A stretch of DNA of 64,000 nt. Origin: a virus. Location: positions 1 through 64,000 of the IMG/VR virus record IMGVR_UViG_3300031772_004865. One strand, written 5' to 3'. Numbering within the stretch: position 1 is the first letter of the stretch; the number at the start of each line of letters is the position of its first letter. The position numbers were made by a program, and so were the translations under genes. Below the pieces are notes generated by a model. It made no database searches. It was not told where the DNA came from and saw only the letters and a list, made by a program, of their open reading frames with translations. Positions 16,361-60,353 of this stretch are shown in pieces.

Positions 16361-17200
16361 TTATTGTGCTTTTCCTTTTTTGTTTATATTTAATCCTTTA
16401 ATTTCGTAAGAAGCATCATAATTAATATTATCTCCTTTTGGATAGGGCAATATTTTCCATTTAAGTGCTGCTCTCATTTCTTTCTTTTGTTTATAATTGC
16501 CAAGAAACATCAAATATCGGTGTTTTGGTGTAACTTTTATCGGTTCATAACCATTTTTTATAGCATTTTCTATACTTCCAGTACCTAATCTATTAAATAT
16601 TACTTTCCTATGATACATTTTTCCATCTTTTCTAAATTCAATATCCCCACAACCCATTCCAGTATATAACCAATTAAGTGCCTGATAAATATAACCATGA
16701 TGTCCTTGTCCACTATCAGAATAAGAAATAACTGTTATTGGTTGGGGCAATAACTTTAAACAAGAACTAACAAAAAAAGACAAAGTGTTTTTTGGTAATA
16801 ATTCGTTTACAATTAATCGGTTAAGTTCTATACACCGATAATTTCCTAGTAAATTATTTAAAGAATTATTTGCACTCATTCCAAAGGTACAAACTCCTTG
16901 CAAAATATTATTTTTATTATAAAGACCATAAGAATAAATGATAATAGCAGGAATTCTATGTGCATAGTGTTTATTTAAAAACCACTCATAAGTTAATTTC
17001 TTATCAATATTTTTAACAGAAAAATCTAATTTATTAAAATCATATACTTCTTCTTTACGTTCTTTTTTAATTGGAGCGGAGTTAGCGACTTGCACGCTAC
17101 TCTCGGAACTGGAAGTTCCGCATGTCTTTTTCGACACTTCCCCTGCGAATTTAGTTTTAAGTTTTAATAATTCTTCATCACTTAATTTAGATAAATCCAT
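16361..17200 (-). CDS. Mom-like DNA-modification protein (copy 2)
   Basis: A 279-residue protein with the same core as the 9648-10277 gene: KHYAHRIP, IELNRLIVN, VISYSDSGQGHHGYIYQALNWLYTG, a KHRYLMFLG segment and PYPKG. It differs by an N-terminal extension of about 60 residues (LSKLSDEELLKLKTKF helix, then a Ser-rich linker) and a C-terminal tail. Mu Mom family members modify adenine in DNA. Its single-base overlap with the polymerase gene places it in the replication operon. The Ser-rich linker is encoded by a locally GC-rich stretch around 17074-17155. Confidence 0.75.
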   Translation of the reverse strand: MDLSKLSDEELLKLKTKFAGEVSKKTCGTSSSESSVQVANSAPIKKERKEEVYDFNKLDFSVKNIDKKLTYEWFLNKHYAHRIPAIIIYSYGLYNKNNILQGVCTFGMSANNSLNNLLGNYRCIELNRLIVNELLPKNTLSFFVSSCLKLLPQPITVISYSDSGQGHHGYIYQALNWLYTGMGCGDIEFRKDGKMYHRKVIFNRLGTGSIENAIKNGYEPIKVTPKHRYLMFLGNYKQKKEMRAALKWKILPYPKGDNINYDASYEIKGLNINKKGKAQ

Positions 17201-20200
17201 TAAATTAATCCTCTTCTTTTAAGTTCTTCATTAATTTCTTTTTCGGTAAGATTATCCTGTTTCTTTGTTTTCTTTACTTTAATTTCTTTAATCAATCCCA
17301 AATCCCAGCCTAATGCTTCAAAAATATTCTCACACTTTCCTATAATAGTCTTATCTATCATTTTCTTCCAATTTATATTTTTTACATGGTCAAATTGTTC
17401 TTCGTTATACGCAAGTACATTTTTATCTATTTCTTTTTCACTTGACTTTTCTTCTTTTTCTCCAGTATCTTTATTCTTCATACTTCTTGTTGCTCTACGA
17501 ATTGCTTTTCCAAAAGGTTCTACATACAAATAATAAAATGTATCTCCTGCAACTTTATTAAATCCACATAATTCTTTTGAATATTCTAATGCTCTGGTAA
17601 AAATAGGAGGAGATTTATAAACTGTAGTATTACTTATTTTACAAGGGAATCCAATTTCTGTAATAGATACGGTCTTAATCGCTTCTTTTTGTGAAACGAT
17701 AAATTCTACAATCGCCTCTTGTGATTCATTATCGAGTATTTTATCTATTAATTTAGTTTGAAATTCTTGCATAAATTTACTGCTATCTTTTCTTTTTGCC
17801 TCAATTCCTTTTACTTCTATCTTTAATTTATTATCTTTGGTTCTTAATCTTCCTTTATAATGACAAAGTGCTACAATCAAAATCTGTTCATATTTCCCTT
17901 CATAATCGAATTCAATTCCTGTTTTTTCTTTATTATATTTTTCTTTTGCCCATTGTTGAACTAATTGATTACATAATTCTAAAGGATTTTCTTTTGCTAT
18001 TACCATAACTGAATCGGTATCCAAATAAATTACTTTTACACTACGCTTTCCTAATTCAATTTCAATGTAGTGTAACAAATCTCTAACTATTGAAGTAATC
18101 GCACTTGCTATATTTACATTATAAAGTCTAAAAACTTTTAATGCAGTTACTCCAAATAATGAATTCACTAATGCTTTTACTGCATCGTATTTCATTTGGA
18201 GGTCTTTTGCTTCAGGAGTTTCGGGGTCTAATGATTTAAGTTGTTTCTTTAAATAATCTTTTTTGATTATTAACTTCCTGGCTAATGTAGGTAATAAAGC
18301 ATTTGAATTTTGTTTAAAATAAACAGGATACTTTACTTCATTAGTTTCTCGGTCAGTAATATCGATTTTCAATTCATTTTTATTAATGGTTAAATTAGCA
18401 ATATCTAAACAAAAATCTATAATCGCCATTGGATAGGCAGAATTTCCAGAAATAAATACTTTCCCTTTTCTTCTCATAATTACAAAACCATTTTTAACGG
18501 TTGGACACCATACTATACCAGAATATAATACTTTCTTTTTTTGCGGAGAATATAAATTAGTATAATGTTCATTATTAAAATAAACATTTTTTCTTCCATC
18601 TTCTTGGGTAGAATATCCTAATAATACTAATAAATATTGAAATCTATCTCTTGCTAATTTATCTTTAGCATTGTAATTATTTTTGTTCTTATCTCCATCA
18701 CCTTTCATTAATTCTTTAAATAAAATATTTAATTGTCTAGTAGATAGTTCTTTTAACATCCATAAGGGAATAACTTTATAATTATCTTCTAACTGGATGT
18801 AAGTTGAATAAAGCCATTTTAAATTCCAATCTAACTCTCCTTTTCTAATTCCTTTTCTATCATATTTAGAAACATTCCATTTCAATTGTTTAAATAATAA
18901 ATCTATTTCCTTACAAAATACTGGATTGGCTTTAGAACTTTGACTAATATGATAAATATTACTTTTTACTCTACTATTGCCAAGTTCATTGTGTCCTTCT
19001 GTAATTATCCAAGCATGGATTTTTAATAATTCATCGGAAATAGGATAGTCTTTATTTCTTTTAAAGTTTGCAGAAAGAGGTAAAATAGTATGATATGTAT
19101 GAAAATCTTTAGCAAATGCGATTTGCCAAGAATCTTTTTTAGCTTTTTTATGATTATTATTAACAGTATATTTGTATAGAACTTTATGATTCCAAGTTAA
19201 TAATTGTTTAGTTTTACTATTTTCTAAACTATACATTTCCAAAATTTTAACTTTTTTAATATTTAAATATAGCATTTGTTGAAATTCAATTAAATTTCTT
19301 TCTACACTAAAGGTTGCTAATTCTTCTTTTTCTTGTAACTCATTATATTTTTTCCATCCATCTATAGAAAGAATTTCTGTATCTTCAGAATAGCATCCTA
19401 AATCAAGTTTATATAAATTTTCAAATCTTCCAGTATCACATTTTCTATAGGCTCCTTCGAACTCAATTTCTTCAATAAAATCTTCTCCATAATGTTTGGA
19501 AGGAAGTACTATTCCTTTTGATTTAGCTTCTGATAATAACATCATATCTAATACTTTCGAATTCCAAACAATATCTTCCCAAAGACATTTTCCCATTCTA
19601 CGAATTTCATCATAATAAGGGATAATCTTTTTTTCTTTCTCAATTCCAACCATTTTCTTGATGTCTTCTATGTTCTTCTCTTTTATTTCTTCAGTAATTT
19701 GACTAAAATCTGCTTTTTTATTTAAAGGAGTATTTAAGTATTTATGAGCAATAGAATCCAAAGCATAAGATACTTCTCCTTTATAAATTTTCTTAAATAA
19801 ATCCAAATAATCTAATATACTTATTCCTGTAGGATAAGGAATCTCGTCTTCTTTCCTACCGTATCTCATCTTACTTATTGGAGAAATTAATTCTGCTAAT
19901 TCTAAATTCCATAATCTTTTTATCCGAGCAGCCAAATAAGGATAATCAAATTGGACAAAATTCCAACCTAAAATAAGGTCGGGTTGAGTATCTTTAATAT
20001 AACGAATTGCATTTTTTAATAAATCATCTTCAGCCATTTCTAATTTATCTTGTTTGTAATCCAATTTTTCAAATATTAAATCTTCAAGATAATCTTTAAT
20101 AAACCAATTTCGGATGGTTTTTTCTAATGAATTATAAATAGAAATTGAAGTAATTGTTTTATCGGGATTAAGATAAGAAGGCAATTCTTTTGTTTGAATT

Positions 20201-20520
20201 TCAATATCAATAAATAAATATTTAGTTGGAGAAGGAAGAATTTCACTTACCTTATCAATCATGTAACGTTTTGGATAAATAACATCTGCCTCATAAGAAG
20301 TATCTGTTTTCCGTCTTTTTATTTCTCCAGGTTCTCTGCAAGTAATTTTCGATACTTTTTTTCCGTCGATTGTTTGATAAATTCCTTTCGGGTCCTCTTC
20401 ATAAAAATAAGGTTTAAAAATAGTATCCTGCATAATAGTAAGAGAACCATCCTTCTGTCTATTAAAAAGATATATCTTATTTCCTATATTGGCTATATTT
20501 TTTAAAGGATAATTAAGCAT
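17200..20520 (-). CDS. Family B DNA polymerase with an intein
   Basis: A 1106-residue precursor; after removal of residues 376-693 the polymerase is 788 residues. The exonuclease domain shows FIDIE (D105, E107) and WNFVQFD (N187, D192). Motif A is DLG-SAYP, split by the intein after Gly375; motif B is KALVNSLFG (782-790) and motif C YLDTDS (832-837). The C-terminus has a basic KKTKK tail. It is the main replicative polymerase of the phage. The neighbours are a zinc protein gene and the Mom-like gene, each overlapping by one base. Confidence 0.95.
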   Translation of the reverse strand: MLNYPLKNIANIGNKIYLFNRQKDGSLTIMQDTIFKPYFYEEDPKGIYQTIDGKKVSKITCREPGEIKRRKTDTSYEADVIYPKRYMIDKVSEILPSPTKYLFIDIEIQTKELPSYLNPDKTITSISIYNSLEKTIRNWFIKDYLEDLIFEKLDYKQDKLEMAEDDLLKNAIRYIKDTQPDLILGWNFVQFDYPYLAARIKRLWNLELAELISPISKMRYGRKEDEIPYPTGISILDYLDLFKKIYKGEVSYALDSIAHKYLNTPLNKKADFSQITEEIKEKNIEDIKKMVGIEKEKKIIPYYDEIRRMGKCLWEDIVWNSKVLDMMLLSEAKSKGIVLPSKHYGEDFIEEIEFEGAYRKCDTGRFENLYKLDLGCYSEDTEILSIDGWKKYNELQEKEELATFSVERNLIEFQQMLYLNIKKVKILEMYSLENSKTKQLLTWNHKVLYKYTVNNNHKKAKKDSWQIAFAKDFHTYHTILPLSANFKRNKDYPISDELLKIHAWIITEGHNELGNSRVKSNIYHISQSSKANPVFCKEIDLLFKQLKWNVSKYDRKGIRKGELDWNLKWLYSTYIQLEDNYKVIPLWMLKELSTRQLNILFKELMKGDGDKNKNNYNAKDKLARDRFQYLLVLLGYSTQEDGRKNVYFNNEHYTNLYSPQKKKVLYSGIVWCPTVKNGFVIMRRKGKVFISGNSAYPMAIIDFCLDIANLTINKNELKIDITDRETNEVKYPVYFKQNSNALLPTLARKLIIKKDYLKKQLKSLDPETPEAKDLQMKYDAVKALVNSLFGVTALKVFRLYNVNIASAITSIVRDLLHYIEIELGKRSVKVIYLDTDSVMVIAKENPLELCNQLVQQWAKEKYNKEKTGIEFDYEGKYEQILIVALCHYKGRLRTKDNKLKIEVKGIEAKRKDSSKFMQEFQTKLIDKILDNESQEAIVEFIVSQKEAIKTVSITEIGFPCKISNTTVYKSPPIFTRALEYSKELCGFNKVAGDTFYYLYVEPFGKAIRRATRSMKNKDTGEKEEKSSEKEIDKNVLAYNEEQFDHVKNINWKKMIDKTIIGKCENIFEALGWDLGLIKEIKVKKTKKQDNLTEKEINEELKRRGLI
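18442..19395 (-). mobile_element. Intein with LAGLIDADG homing endonuclease in DNA polymerase motif A
   Basis: 318 residues (376-693 of the precursor). The first residue is Cys376 (CYSEDTEIL), block B is TWNH (T442, H445), the endonuclease blocks are IHAWIITEGH (501-510) and LMKGDGD (605-610), and the C-terminal block runs through YSGIVWCP to FISGN with Asn693 and Ser694 as the +1 nucleophile. The usual His before the last Asn is Gly. Splicing restores DLGSAYP, the metal-binding loop of the polymerase, so the unspliced enzyme should be inactive. Confidence 0.92.
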
Positions 20521-25279: not shown

Positions 25280-27165
25280 TATATTGGATTATTAGTTTCA
25301 TTTAATTCTTTATTAAAAAAATTAAATTTACAATTTATTCGTTCCGTTTGATTATGTCCAAGAGGGTCTCGCATTTTATCTATAATCCAATGACCTTCTA
25401 TTCCATCACTAGGATTATTATATTGATACCTTGCAGCAAATGAAGCAAATGATTTAATTAAATTCACAGCAAAATAATCATCGTTTTCTTTTAATTGAGT
25501 AAAAACAATGAGGATTCCACCTTTACGCCTCATTTCATCAGCAAGATGTTTAAATACTGATTGTGTCATTGCAAAGTCTTCCCCTGTGTACAACCAATCA
25601 ATTATGGAAAAAGAATTAGGCACAATTTCTATTTGGGTAGGATTATCAATTGATTCTTTTGAAATATAATAATCTTTTTGAGTTAATCCTAATTTTTGAG
25701 CTATTTTTTCGTGTCTACTGCCTGATTCCAAAGAAATGTAATAAGGCATTATCTCATCATTTAATTTTTTGGCGTTTTCTTTAATTTTTTTGATAATATT
25801 CATAGCAATATGTGTTTTTCCTTTACCTGTTGCAGTTCCTAATAAAACAATATCTCCACTATGAAAATTAGCCACATTACTAAAATAAGGTATTTCGTAT
25901 TTATATTCTGCAGAAAATTCTTGTGCCTCAGTAACCCATTCTATTTGTTGTTTTAGGTCATAACGACCTCTTCCTCTTCTAACTAATTTACCTTCTTTAT
26001 GTAATTTAGCTAAGTATTTATCTACAATTGCTCTTTTTAAATTAGTATGTTCCATTACATCTTTTGCAGAAATATCGCATTGCAATAATTTACAACATTC
26101 GTAAATCGCTTTTTCTTGAGTGGATTCTTCTGTTTCTTTATAACCTTCCAAACTTCCTATCATGCCTCTAATAGCATTTTGTGGCATGGGATTTTCTAAT
26201 AATTGAGTATTAAAAACACTTAAAGTAAATTCTACTTGCTCGGGAGTTAATTTATTAATAAGTATCCCCCCTAATTTAATAAAAGTATCATTACAACATC
26301 CTATTAAATTATTATTTTTGAGTTTAGGTAATTCTCCTTTTTGTTGTGTCAAATCTTCTGACATTTTTTCTGTTTCTACCCTATCTACCTTATTGAGAAA
26401 TAATAACTTAGATTTGACATTTTCAGGTACATTTTTTATGTCAGAACCAAGATTTACCCAAGTATAATTAAGATTATTAATCTTTGAAGGAGAACATAAA
26501 ATTTGACCTCCATCATTCCTAATATCAATAGTAACTCCAGCAATTTTTGAGGTTTGTTTTATTTCTTTATCATACTTAAAAATAAAATGCTTTCCATGTG
26601 GGGTATTTTGAATTAATGTTTTTGATGCAGTTAATTCTTTATAAATTTCTTCGTATTCTCCCGAAGGAGCAACTTTTAAATCAGCATCTATTACAGTAAT
26701 TCCACTAACTTCTCCTGTTCTAATACCTAAATTAAGACCACCTTCTATCCACTTTAAAATCTCCGATTTATCTTTATGAGTTTTATTGGTCCAATCTTTT
26801 TCTAAAGGAATTTTTCCATTTTTAGCAATTGGAAGGAAAGACCAACCATATTTTTGATATAATTCTAACTCTGGATAATTATCTAATTTTAAAGAATTAA
26901 TTAAAAAATCCATAACTTCTCCATCAGTCATTGGTTTATTTTCTAATAATCTAACAATATCGTATACATTTCCTTTCCAATTACATTGAAGACAATAAAT
27001 CTTATTATCAGTTCCTGGAATAGTTGTGGCAGTTGGTGATTTTCCTTTATATTTATGTTGACCAATATTAGGACAAGTAAATAGGATTTGTCCTTTCTTT
27101 TGGGTCTTCTCAAATTCAGGAAGTTTAATTTTTAAATATTCTAAAAATTTAGTAAAATCAATCAT
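25279..27165 (-). CDS. Primase-polymerase / replicative helicase fusion
   Basis: A 628-residue protein with three parts. Residues 25-75 are a zinc-binding primase head (C31, H37, C58, C61). Residues about 105-240 are a bifunctional primase/polymerase (PrimPol) domain: GWSFLPIAKNGKIP, GITVIDADL with D160 and D162, NTPHGKH, and DIRNDGGQILCSPS. Residues about 425-628 form a RecA-fold helicase with P-loop GTATGKGKTH (443-452). A winged-helix-like linker lies between. It should prime and unwind DNA at the fork with the family B polymerase. Complete length. Confidence 0.87.
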   Translation of the reverse strand: MIDFTKFLEYLKIKLPEFEKTQKKGQILFTCPNIGQHKYKGKSPTATTIPGTDNKIYCLQCNWKGNVYDIVRLLENKPMTDGEVMDFLINSLKLDNYPELELYQKYGWSFLPIAKNGKIPLEKDWTNKTHKDKSEILKWIEGGLNLGIRTGEVSGITVIDADLKVAPSGEYEEIYKELTASKTLIQNTPHGKHFIFKYDKEIKQTSKIAGVTIDIRNDGGQILCSPSKINNLNYTWVNLGSDIKNVPENVKSKLLFLNKVDRVETEKMSEDLTQQKGELPKLKNNNLIGCCNDTFIKLGGILINKLTPEQVEFTLSVFNTQLLENPMPQNAIRGMIGSLEGYKETEESTQEKAIYECCKLLQCDISAKDVMEHTNLKRAIVDKYLAKLHKEGKLVRRGRGRYDLKQQIEWVTEAQEFSAEYKYEIPYFSNVANFHSGDIVLLGTATGKGKTHIAMNIIKKIKENAKKLNDEIMPYYISLESGSRHEKIAQKLGLTQKDYYISKESIDNPTQIEIVPNSFSIIDWLYTGEDFAMTQSVFKHLADEMRRKGGILIVFTQLKENDDYFAVNLIKSFASFAARYQYNNPSDGIEGHWIIDKMRDPLGHNQTERINCKFNFFNKELNETNNPI

Positions 27166-40563: not shown

Positions 40564-40614
40564 CTATATACTATTAACGGAATTTTTGGCATTTTGTAAC
40601 ATTTATTTTTGTAT
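40564..40614 (-). promoter_or_regulatory. 51-bp element repeated upstream of the structured RNA
   Basis: On the minus strand this reads ATACAAAAATAAATGTTACAAAA, nine variable bases, then TTCCGTTAATAGTATATAG. The same blocks with the same spacing occur at 59152-59202 on the plus strand. It lies at the end of the sigma-factor gene (including its last three codons and stop) and in front of the Cro-like gene. The sequence does not fit an ordinary sigma-70 promoter well, so recognition by the phage sigma factor is a hypothesis. Confidence 0.6.
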
Positions 40615-58562: not shown

Positions 58563-58842
58563 TCTACCTTATTGAAATCATTAGAGTTAAGTCATTTCTA
58601 CCTCAATCTTATTAGTTTCTACCCTATTATATATAGGTAAGGAGAATTAGTAAAGGACTAAATTATACTTTCTACCTACTTCTACCTTATTTAGGGTAGA
58701 TACTAAATTAGCAATCTACCATTTCTACCTTTTAGAATCTACTCTATCTACCATTATTAATACCAATAGGTTATGATTTCTATCTTAATATCTACTAATT
58801 TATACCTATTCTTCTTTGCTTATTCTACTTTAGAAAGGTAGA
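58563..58842. repeat. TCTACC iteron-like repeat cluster
   Basis: Ten exact TCTACC hexamers within 280 bases: forward at 58563, 58597, 58618, 58671, 58681, 58715, 58724, 58747 and inverted (GGTAGA) at 58695 and 58837, plus TCTACT variants at 58738, 58791 and 58824. By base composition fewer than one is expected. Clustered short repeats in a gene-free divergent region are typical of initiator-binding iterons at a replication origin. Confidence 0.65.
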
Positions 58843-59151: not shown

Positions 59152-59202
59152 ATACAAAAATAAATGTTACAAAAAAGGAATTTTTCCGTTAATAGTATAT
59201 AG
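59152..59202 (+). promoter_or_regulatory. Promoter-like element for the structured RNA
   Basis: The same 51-bp two-block element as at 40564-40614: ATACAAAAATAAATGTTACAAAA, nine variable bases, TTCCGTTAATAGTATATAG. It ends directly before the first stem of the structured RNA, so it is the likely promoter, perhaps read by the phage sigma factor. The ATACAAAAATAA part copies the last codons and stop of the sigma gene. Confidence 0.6.
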
Positions 59203-59690
59203 GGGCAGTTAATGCTTCAATGCCAATAATAATCCGAAAAGGAAAAAGGGGTTCACAGCGAATACTTGCTCCTAAATGTAGTTAAGATATTGGGTTATGT
59301 CTTTTTACCTGCTATTTTTATTGGCAGACAAGTCATCCTATAAGGTTATTGGATTGGGGTTTCCTGGTCGACTTATAGTGATGTAACTATGGGTGCTTAC
59401 TGATTATCGGGAGGCACCCGATTGATACTTCCTCCTAATTTGACTGCTTATTTAGCGATAAGCCTCGAATTAGGTTATTTATGACCTCGAAAGGTGAGTC
59501 GTGTCTATCTGGTTGCAACCAGGACAAGCCGAGTAGAAAAGATAAGGATTATCGTATAGACTAGAATGGTTTAGCTAACTATTTAATAAGATAATCCAAT
59601 TAATTTTCAACCAGCTTATTATCAAACGATAGTAAGTCTAAAGCTCAAGATAAAGTTCGAAAGGATTTTGTTTTGGGCTTTTTTATTTTA
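59203..59690 (+). ncRNA. Large structured non-coding RNA, about 490 nt
   Basis: Gene-free and visibly more GC-rich than the flanks, with many perfect stems in order: ATAGT/ACTAT (about 59376-59390); GGGTGC/GCACCC (59391-59396 with 59414-59419), mutually exclusive with ATCGGG/CCCGAT (59406-59411 with 59417-59422); CCTAATT/AATTAGG (59434-59440 with 59468-59474) enclosing GCTTAT/ATAAGC; ACCT-CGAA-AGGT; the palindrome CTGGTTGCAACCAG (about 59508-59521); GGATTATC/GATAATCC (59546-59553 with 59590-59597); and a terminator stem at the end. Neither frame pair gives a protein. Size and phage setting recall the GOLLD and ROOL ornate RNAs, but identity is not established. Confidence 0.75.
59640..59690 (+). 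terminator. Rho-independent terminator of the structured RNA
   Basis: AAAGCTCAA (59640-59648) pairs with TTGGGCTTT (59673-59681) with one G-U, followed by TTTTTTATTTTA. It closes the structured RNA before the leader of the structural genes. Confidence 0.75.
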
Positions 59691-59814
59691 TAGGGTTAAG
59701 GGAATTTTACCTCTTCCATAAATTGTAAGTTTAAAATGGGAACTTATTAACCCTACCACAAATCCTGCTTCCGTAGCCAGCCATAAAGTTGATATGCATA
59801 ATATCCGCAGCAGG
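59691..59814 (+). other. Second structured leader element
   Basis: TAGGGTTAA (59691-59699) pairs with TTAACCCTA (59747-59755); CCTGCT (59764-59769) pairs with AGCAGG (59809-59814) around an inner GATAT/ATATC stem. The element lies between the terminator and the first plus-strand gene and could be a leader, attenuator or second RNA. A T-rich tract follows the second stem. Confidence 0.55.
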
Positions 59815-59844
59815 TAAAACTTTTTTATTATTGTGGAAAATCAA

Positions 59845-59988
59845 ATGATTAAAAAATATGATTTTATAGATAGAATAATTTATTTAATTAAAAAAGAATT
59901 AGAAAAATCTCTTTCCGAAGAAGATACACTTGAAGAGATGAATAGATGTTTAGAAAAAACTTTAAATAAAATAGTAAGGGGAAAATAA
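59845..59988 (+). CDS. Small helical protein, first gene of the rightward operon
   Basis: A 47-residue charged helical protein, MIKKYDFIDRIIYLIKKELEK at the start. It ends two bases before the next gene. No motif. It may be a small structural or assembly protein given its neighbours. Confidence 0.5.
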   Translation: MIKKYDFIDRIIYLIKKELEKSLSEEDTLEEMNRCLEKTLNKIVRGK

Positions 59989-59990
59989 AA

Positions 59991-60353
59991 ATGTTAGAAT
60001 CAACTAATTTAATTATTAAACGAGGAGATTCTTGGAGTAGAACAATCTATTTCGAAGACGAATATAATGCTAGAATAAATATAACAGGGTGGATTATTTA
60101 TTTTTTAATAAAAGTGAAAATAGACGATTTAGATAATGCTACTGATGTAATTCCAGCAACAGTAACTTTTTCTAATCCTATCGATGGAGAAGCTACAATA
60201 CAATTAACTTCGACACAGACAAATGTTTTAGGTAATCGTTTATTTGGAATAAAAGTTATTACTGATAAAATGATAGGAATTACAAAAGAAGCGATTACTG
60301 TTTTGGAAGGTACTATTGTATTTACTGACCGAGTAGTCCAGGCGGTGTCCTAA
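59991..60353 (+). CDS. Tail/baseplate-type beta-sandwich protein
   Basis: A 120-residue protein with IKRGDSWSRTIYF, INITGWIIYFLIK and ATIQLTSTQTNVLGNRLFGIKVI. The RGDxW...ITGxxIxFxIK...GxxxIxLTxxxT pattern is that of the N-terminal sandwich domain of phage baseplate upper or tail-fibre proteins. Overlaps the next gene by TAATG. Confidence 0.65.
   Translation: MLESTNLIIKRGDSWSRTIYFEDEYNARINITGWIIYFLIKVKIDDLDNATDVIPATVTFSNPIDGEATIQLTSTQTNVLGNRLFGIKVITDKMIGITKEAITVLEGTIVFTDRVVQAVS

Follow-up and report, generated by a model that had tools for sequence, protein, structure and literature searches.

The late operon of phage lambda is headed by a promoter, a short untranslated transcript (the pR' leader, or 6S RNA) and the terminator tR', and is controlled by antitermination. 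Lambda N marks the transcription complex at nut sites, and RNA-borne nut and put sites act from a distance. GOLLD and ROOL RNAs frequently, though not obligatorily, lie near tRNA islands. Both are known to form RNA-only cages (PMC12286853), and in phage ICP1 a non-coding RNA of ~800 nt, located upstream of the lysis cluster, dominates the transcripts in abundance (PMC7567579). Here we describe a predicted RNA at the head of a phage late operon. From sequence comparison, we assign it to a new family among the large structured phage RNAs, unusual in its mosaic architecture; the family would be an undescribed addition to a small set.

The locus lies in the window, which covers bases 1-64,000 of a virus record of 77,390 bases (the uncultured window phage, G000). 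The leftward genes on the left side include those for DNA polymerase B and a sigma-like factor, along with many for HNH endonucleases and a number of small early genes; rightward genes run from 59833 on to the terminase, portal and capsid genes. The two gene sets are separated by a gene-free stretch of ~1.8 kb, in which the original prediction had placed the RNA: neither strand holds an ORF of at least 40 aa between 58397 and 59833. HNH-like endonuclease ORFs are unusually numerous between single genes throughout the window (e.g. at 27165, 29489, 34145, 38224, 44245, 51464 and 61333) and in L003. Intein-like insertions (window 17200-20520 on the minus strand, L178 and L179) are present in the window's DNA polymerase B; two relatives, G007 and G009, carry them in the terminase, at different sites.

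The plus strand of 59170-59700 has a fold energy of -161.3 kcal/mol, whereas its shuffles average -122.0 (z -6.8, with 0 of 100 shuffles folding as well); for the minus strand, z is -2.1. For 59203-59690, z is -6.96 and -2.46 on the plus and minus strands, respectively, and overall the RNA ranges from -6.5 to -7.0 on its own strand and from -2.1 to -2.7 on the opposite one. The control set comprised 122 windows of 488 nt from the two strands of the 77-kb record. Their median z is -0.09; the minimum, -3.3, belongs to a window that overlaps the RNA, and the second lowest value is -2.5. The RNA is a strand-specific fold outlier genome-wide, and its GC content is 0.365 against about 0.22-0.28 in the immediate flanks, so that both the high degree of structure and the GC enrichment that had been claimed for this stretch are borne out. 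Both of its boundaries, at about 59203 and about 59690, are predicted. The features of the locus are collected in Table 1.

Table 1. Features of the RNA locus; positions are those of the window unless a locus is named.
Feature	Position	Strand	Remarks
TCTACC/GGTAGA repeats, iteron-like cluster 5' of RNA	58563..58842	.	10 sites in 280 bp
Putative promoter block	59152..59202	+	copy at 40564-40614 (-), directly behind sigma-factor gene
Structured non-coding RNA, ~488 nt, predicted transcript	59203..59690	+	fold z, no ORF, homologues in G003, G007, G008, G009, G010
Box A, ATGCY.ATAA..TCCGAAARGGRAA..GGGTTCACAG	59212..59258	+	local alignment to G003 (L028:14113-14159)
Hairpin CTGCTA..TTGGCAG, then ACAAG	59309..59332	+	G010 counterpart CTGCC..CGGCAGACAAGTCATC
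Module B outer stem CATC-CTATAAG/CTTATAG-T-GATG around Box B	59334..59383	+	7 bp in window
Box B hairpin GGAYTGGGNNNNCCTGGTCGA	59351..59371	+	one copy per clade genome
Box B in tmRNA-type loci (n = 12)			L133, L107, L051, L061, L103, L132, L048, L098, L054, L146, L052, L041
Module P hairpin GGGTGC..(CTGA/TCGG)..GCACCC	59391..59419	+	11/11 pairs kept in G000, G007/G008, G010 (few sequences; one loop base placed by hand in G010)
Long hairpin CCTAATTTGA..TCGAATTAGG	59434..59474	+	minimum-free-energy fold; seen in window phage only
Module C, CTCGAAAGGTGAG..CTATCTGGTTGCAACCAGG.CAA..GAGTAGAAAAG	59486..59544	+	G009 match; hairpin CUGGUUGCAACCAG/CUGUUUGCAAGCAG
Intrinsic terminator	59640..59690	+	19-bp stem and T-run at 59640-59681; outer stem common to G009, G007
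Separate stem-loop behind terminator, GGGTTAAGGGAATTTTACC..AACTTATTAACCC	59693..59753	+	within 93% match over 92 nt with G007 (L076:973-1035)
First late-operon ORFs (51 aa; 120 aa, kept in relatives)	59833..60353	+	homologues open late side in G003, G007, G009, G010

Relatives were reached by way of the terminase, which led to G003; comparison of the G000 and G003 junctions gave Box A and Box B, and a Box B scan of IMG/VR contigs, with matches filtered by composition and context, gave G007, G008, G009 and G010. GC-rich Box B matches were set aside, as their neighbouring sequences repeat between contigs in the manner of homologous coding genes. Over the matched segments, the terminases of these four phages are 26-36% identical to that of the window. 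In all, five related uncultured phages carry mosaic homologues of the RNA in the same place, and the order is constant in the six phages (leftward early genes, TCTACC cluster, RNA, late operon), and in all six the late operon begins with, or has close to its start, a homologue of the ORF at 59991 in the window. A second terminase group brought ten new relatives, which show no Box B with up to 3 mismatches, barring chance-like matches in one; their loci are without a TCTACC cluster and the gap sequences read contain small genes. No further genomes were found with Box A, apical P or extended Box B patterns, the extended Box B is absent from 84,980 bacterial and archaeal genomes, and a terminase search of genome contigs and INPHARED returned no match.

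Each relative has a different portion of the window's RNA in common with it. Box A is found in G003 (E 9e-5 in a comparison of 700 x 900 nt), whereas the stretch in common with G010 holds the CTGC hairpin, Box B and the next stem (73% over 96 nt, E 1.6e-11) and the one in common with G009 is module C (75% identity over 97 nt, E 1.5e-14); hairpin P is common to the window, G007, G008 and G010. Each module is common to just two to six sequences, and modules are shuffled between phages. Most of the RNA length is unalignable between phages and no full-length alignment is possible. The stem-loop behind the terminator is, as judged from the sequences, a swappable cassette; G008 and G007 are 97.5% identical around this element. 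Two further observations concern single relatives: in G008 (L095), another element of like format (stem-AAGGGATT..AACTT-stem) replaces the 59693-59753 stem-loop, and in G010 an HNH-like endonuclease ORF lies directly 5' of the RNA.

Covariation across relatives is clearest in module P, where all 11 pairs are kept in three divergent lineages and 4 of them changed on both sides (U-A to C-G; G-C to A-U; C-G, G-C and A-U at one pair; A-U to C-G), a count that relies on a hand-placed one-base loop insertion in G010, which the MAFFT alignment leaves shifted by one, and that rests, like the count for module B, on few sequences. In module B, Box B is flanked by stems of differing sequence in G003 (15 bp), G007 (15 bp), contig G011 (8 bp) and G009 (6 bp), while the outer stem of G010 is weak (4 bp, p 0.20, pairing interrupted). 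For the internal loop of this module, no structural name proved justifiable. The original prediction had further singled out two mutually exclusive stems, GGGTGC/GCACCC and ATCGGG/CCCGAT. Both exist in the window and the former is supported by comparison, but pairs of the latter are lost in G010, and the idea that it acts as a switch was rejected because G010 breaks the stem.

These comparisons bear on one alternative, that a GC-richer spacer folds by chance. The large unalignable part of the RNA would suit such an explanation, but a genome-wide, strand-specific fold outlier, compensatory pairs and a single Box B per genome all speak against it; the homologues refute chance folding, to which we give practically no credence.

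In Rfam release 15, the window has 0 matches at gathering thresholds and only unrelated weak families at E up to 10, and the homologous RNAs of the relatives match no family either. This holds for the GOLLD, ROOL, OLE and raiA covariance models as well as for group I and II introns, riboswitches and known sRNAs, in the window and in relatives. Whole-RNA blastn against INPHARED (window, G007, G009 and G010) gave chance-level matches only, with none in ICP1 for the window. The part of the original prediction that assigned the RNA to the GOLLD/ROOL class therefore falls, there being no useful model score, no tRNA in the 64-kb window and a length below that of most GOLLD RNAs. Its broader suggestion, of a large structured non-coding RNA, perhaps of a new class, stands: the RNA matches no Rfam family and has homologues with covarying base pairs.

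With up to 2 mismatches, Box B occurs exactly once in each of the six clade genomes, where a reversed control pattern has zero matches at the same tolerance. It sits inside the terminator stem in G003, G007 and G008 and is internal in G000, G009 and G010; in the window and G009 it lies some 270 nt upstream of the terminator, whose loop is plain, whereas in G007 it is carried in the terminator loop. Box B is thus kept once per RNA, but its place is not fixed. Short and conserved, the hairpin could be used as bait for a partner. In G011, Box B is found as a small hairpin between two genes.

Twelve loci of the phage permuted tmRNA type also contain Box B, immediately 5' of the tag. The eight loci run against Rfam (L051, L054, L098, L103, L107, L132, L133 and L146) all score as tmRNA_permuted (RF04321; 74-124 bits). 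In the tmRNA-type loci, Box B lies between the first PK1-region stem and the tag (in L133, as an insertion relative to the Rfam model), and its loop varies while its stem is fixed by the search pattern. Because the pattern fixes 17-18 bases, a collection of this size is expected to yield a few chance matches; a chance match in one conserved tmRNA lineage would be multiplied. A further GUUA in front of Box B is shared with the tmRNA loci, which argues against a chance match without excluding it. If the link is real, phage RNAs of different processes share a protein-binding module. The tmRNA-phage records with Box B have no match to the window terminase family, many of these records being fragments. 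One of the contigs with a permuted tmRNA also carries a predicted tRNA with a CUA anticodon (L103:7499-7573, minus strand; tRNA-Pyl according to ARAGORN).

Two readings take up the occurrence of Box B in tmRNAs. It might mean that the window RNA is a degenerate tmRNA, and the 12 tmRNA-type loci are what this idea has in its favour, but ARAGORN and Rfam detect no tmRNA in the window or in the relatives scanned, there is no tag, and the tmRNA phages are without a match to the window terminase, although many are fragments; the idea is largely refuted and we consider it next to impossible. Alternatively, the RNAs could form a new mosaic, trans-acting class, with exchangeable modules arranged around an obligatory Box B that would serve as the docking site of a protein also used on phage tmRNAs, and hence as a handle common to phage non-coding RNAs, a proposal that we find doubtful but worth keeping in view.

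The flanks of the RNA suggest how it may be made. The 51-nt block directly 5' of it is 86% identical to its copy behind the sigma-factor gene and includes an exact 19-mer, TTCCGTTAATAGTATATAG, for which 0.05 matches with up to 3 mismatches are expected by chance. Since it is repeated at this location, the block probably holds a promoter. The promoter-like element that had been proposed in front of the RNA is thus partly upheld, by the repeat but not by its hexamers, which are poor sigma-70 matches. A strong TTGACA-16-TATACT match (11/12) lies just 5' of the RNA in G009, in a region that aligns to G007 (E 1.7e-5), and the sigma-70-like matches of G007 and G003 are weaker. A scan with the promoter 19-mer matched only a fragment of a close relative.

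Further upstream, the TCTACC/GGTAGA cluster stands out against 28 sites in the other 63.7 kb of the window. Clusters are likewise present in G003, G007, G008, G009 and G010, and the cumulative G-C minimum falls within that of the window, at 58750. This array at the early/late divergence is a candidate replication origin or regulator-binding array. The RNA itself could then be part of the origin, as a transcript that opens or primes it beside the iterons, and both the iteron-like clusters in six of six phages and the skew minimum are in keeping with this. A skew minimum is, however, also expected where gene direction switches, and primers need no conserved folds of 450-560 nt that end in a terminator before late genes, which makes an origin function quite unlikely.

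At the 3' end, the terminator with a T-run foreseen by the original prediction is indeed present. It matches that of G009 at 82%, and its stem is homologous in G000, G009 and G007; G010 has no clear T-run terminator. In G003 and G009, AGGGAGGAC and GAGGAAAG, respectively, each followed by ATG, stand directly 3' of the terminator U-tract (the abutting sequence being AGGGAGGACTAATG in G003 and GAGGAAAGAATG in G009), so that the terminator and the ribosome-binding site of the first late gene adjoin without a gap. There being no space for a promoter in between, late transcripts probably arise by read-through of the RNA. The distance from terminator to first gene is 100-150 nt in G000, G007 and G008; promoter matches there are only weak, but a late promoter could hide in this gap.

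A leader with a terminator directly 5' of the late operon, as in the lambda pR'/tR' type, is a feature of the locus, and the conserved place at the late-operon head, together with the abutting terminators of G003 and G009, points first to a leader or termination-control role, which the original prediction had not considered; the job it suggests is control of the early-to-late switch. The simplest reading, and the one that we lean towards, tentatively and at a little short of even chances, is a late-operon leader with regulated termination, in which Box B would be a protein-binding handle. RNA polymerase would start at a promoter just 5' of the RNA, make the structured leader and stop at the terminator. 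At a later stage, a factor from the phage or the host would bind the nascent RNA and allow polymerase to continue past the terminator into the late genes. Box B is the strongest candidate for the binding site, since each RNA keeps one copy of it although the spacing to the terminator varies; there the factor would mark the transcription complex in the way that lambda N does at nut sites. The leader, once terminated, may in addition serve some separate function. A Pfam scan of ten proteins identified no antiterminator gene, and a length of ~450-560 nt and so many modules seem excessive for a simple leader.

In the main rival reading, the RNA acts in trans as a large 'ornate' phage RNA, in the manner of GOLLD, ROOL or the ICP1 transcript; it would adjoin the late operon by location only and accumulate as a finished, terminated molecule. 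Its own promoter region, strong terminator and complex fold would fit such a molecule, as would the presence of Box B in tmRNA, a trans-acting RNA, and the precedent of the abundant ICP1 RNA before the lysis cluster (PMC7567579). Against this stand the lack of an Rfam match and of a nearby tRNA, the G003 and G009 terminators, which leave no space for another late promoter, and the strong turnover of modules between relatives; we regard an ornate RNA as possible. Attenuation with a leader peptide is suggested by a 42-codon ORF with a good ribosome-binding site in the G003 RNA region (L028:14361-14489). The window's RNA has no such ORF and none was recognised in the other relatives' sequences as read, and attenuation thus appears very improbable.

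Compared with the lambda pR'/6S/tR' arrangement, the locus likewise has a leader and terminator at the late-operon head, with promoter and transcript being predicted here. It differs in being about 490 rather than about 190 nt long, far more structured and unrelated in sequence, in that no Q or N homologue was identified, and in the divergent iteron region that adjoins the RNA. Like GOLLD and ROOL (PMC12286853), the RNA is large, ornate and phage-borne; unlike them, it has no covariance-model match and no tRNA island, is built of mosaic modules and is placed at a late operon. With the ICP1 RNA it has in common a large ORF-less region before a late gene cluster, with no tRNAs nearby, but there is no sequence match, and the transcript is shown in ICP1 and predicted here. 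Finally, the RNA of the window is without the tRNA-like domain and tag of the permuted phage tmRNA (RF04321), but the two have in common the Box B hairpin, which in the tmRNA lies just 5' of the tag.
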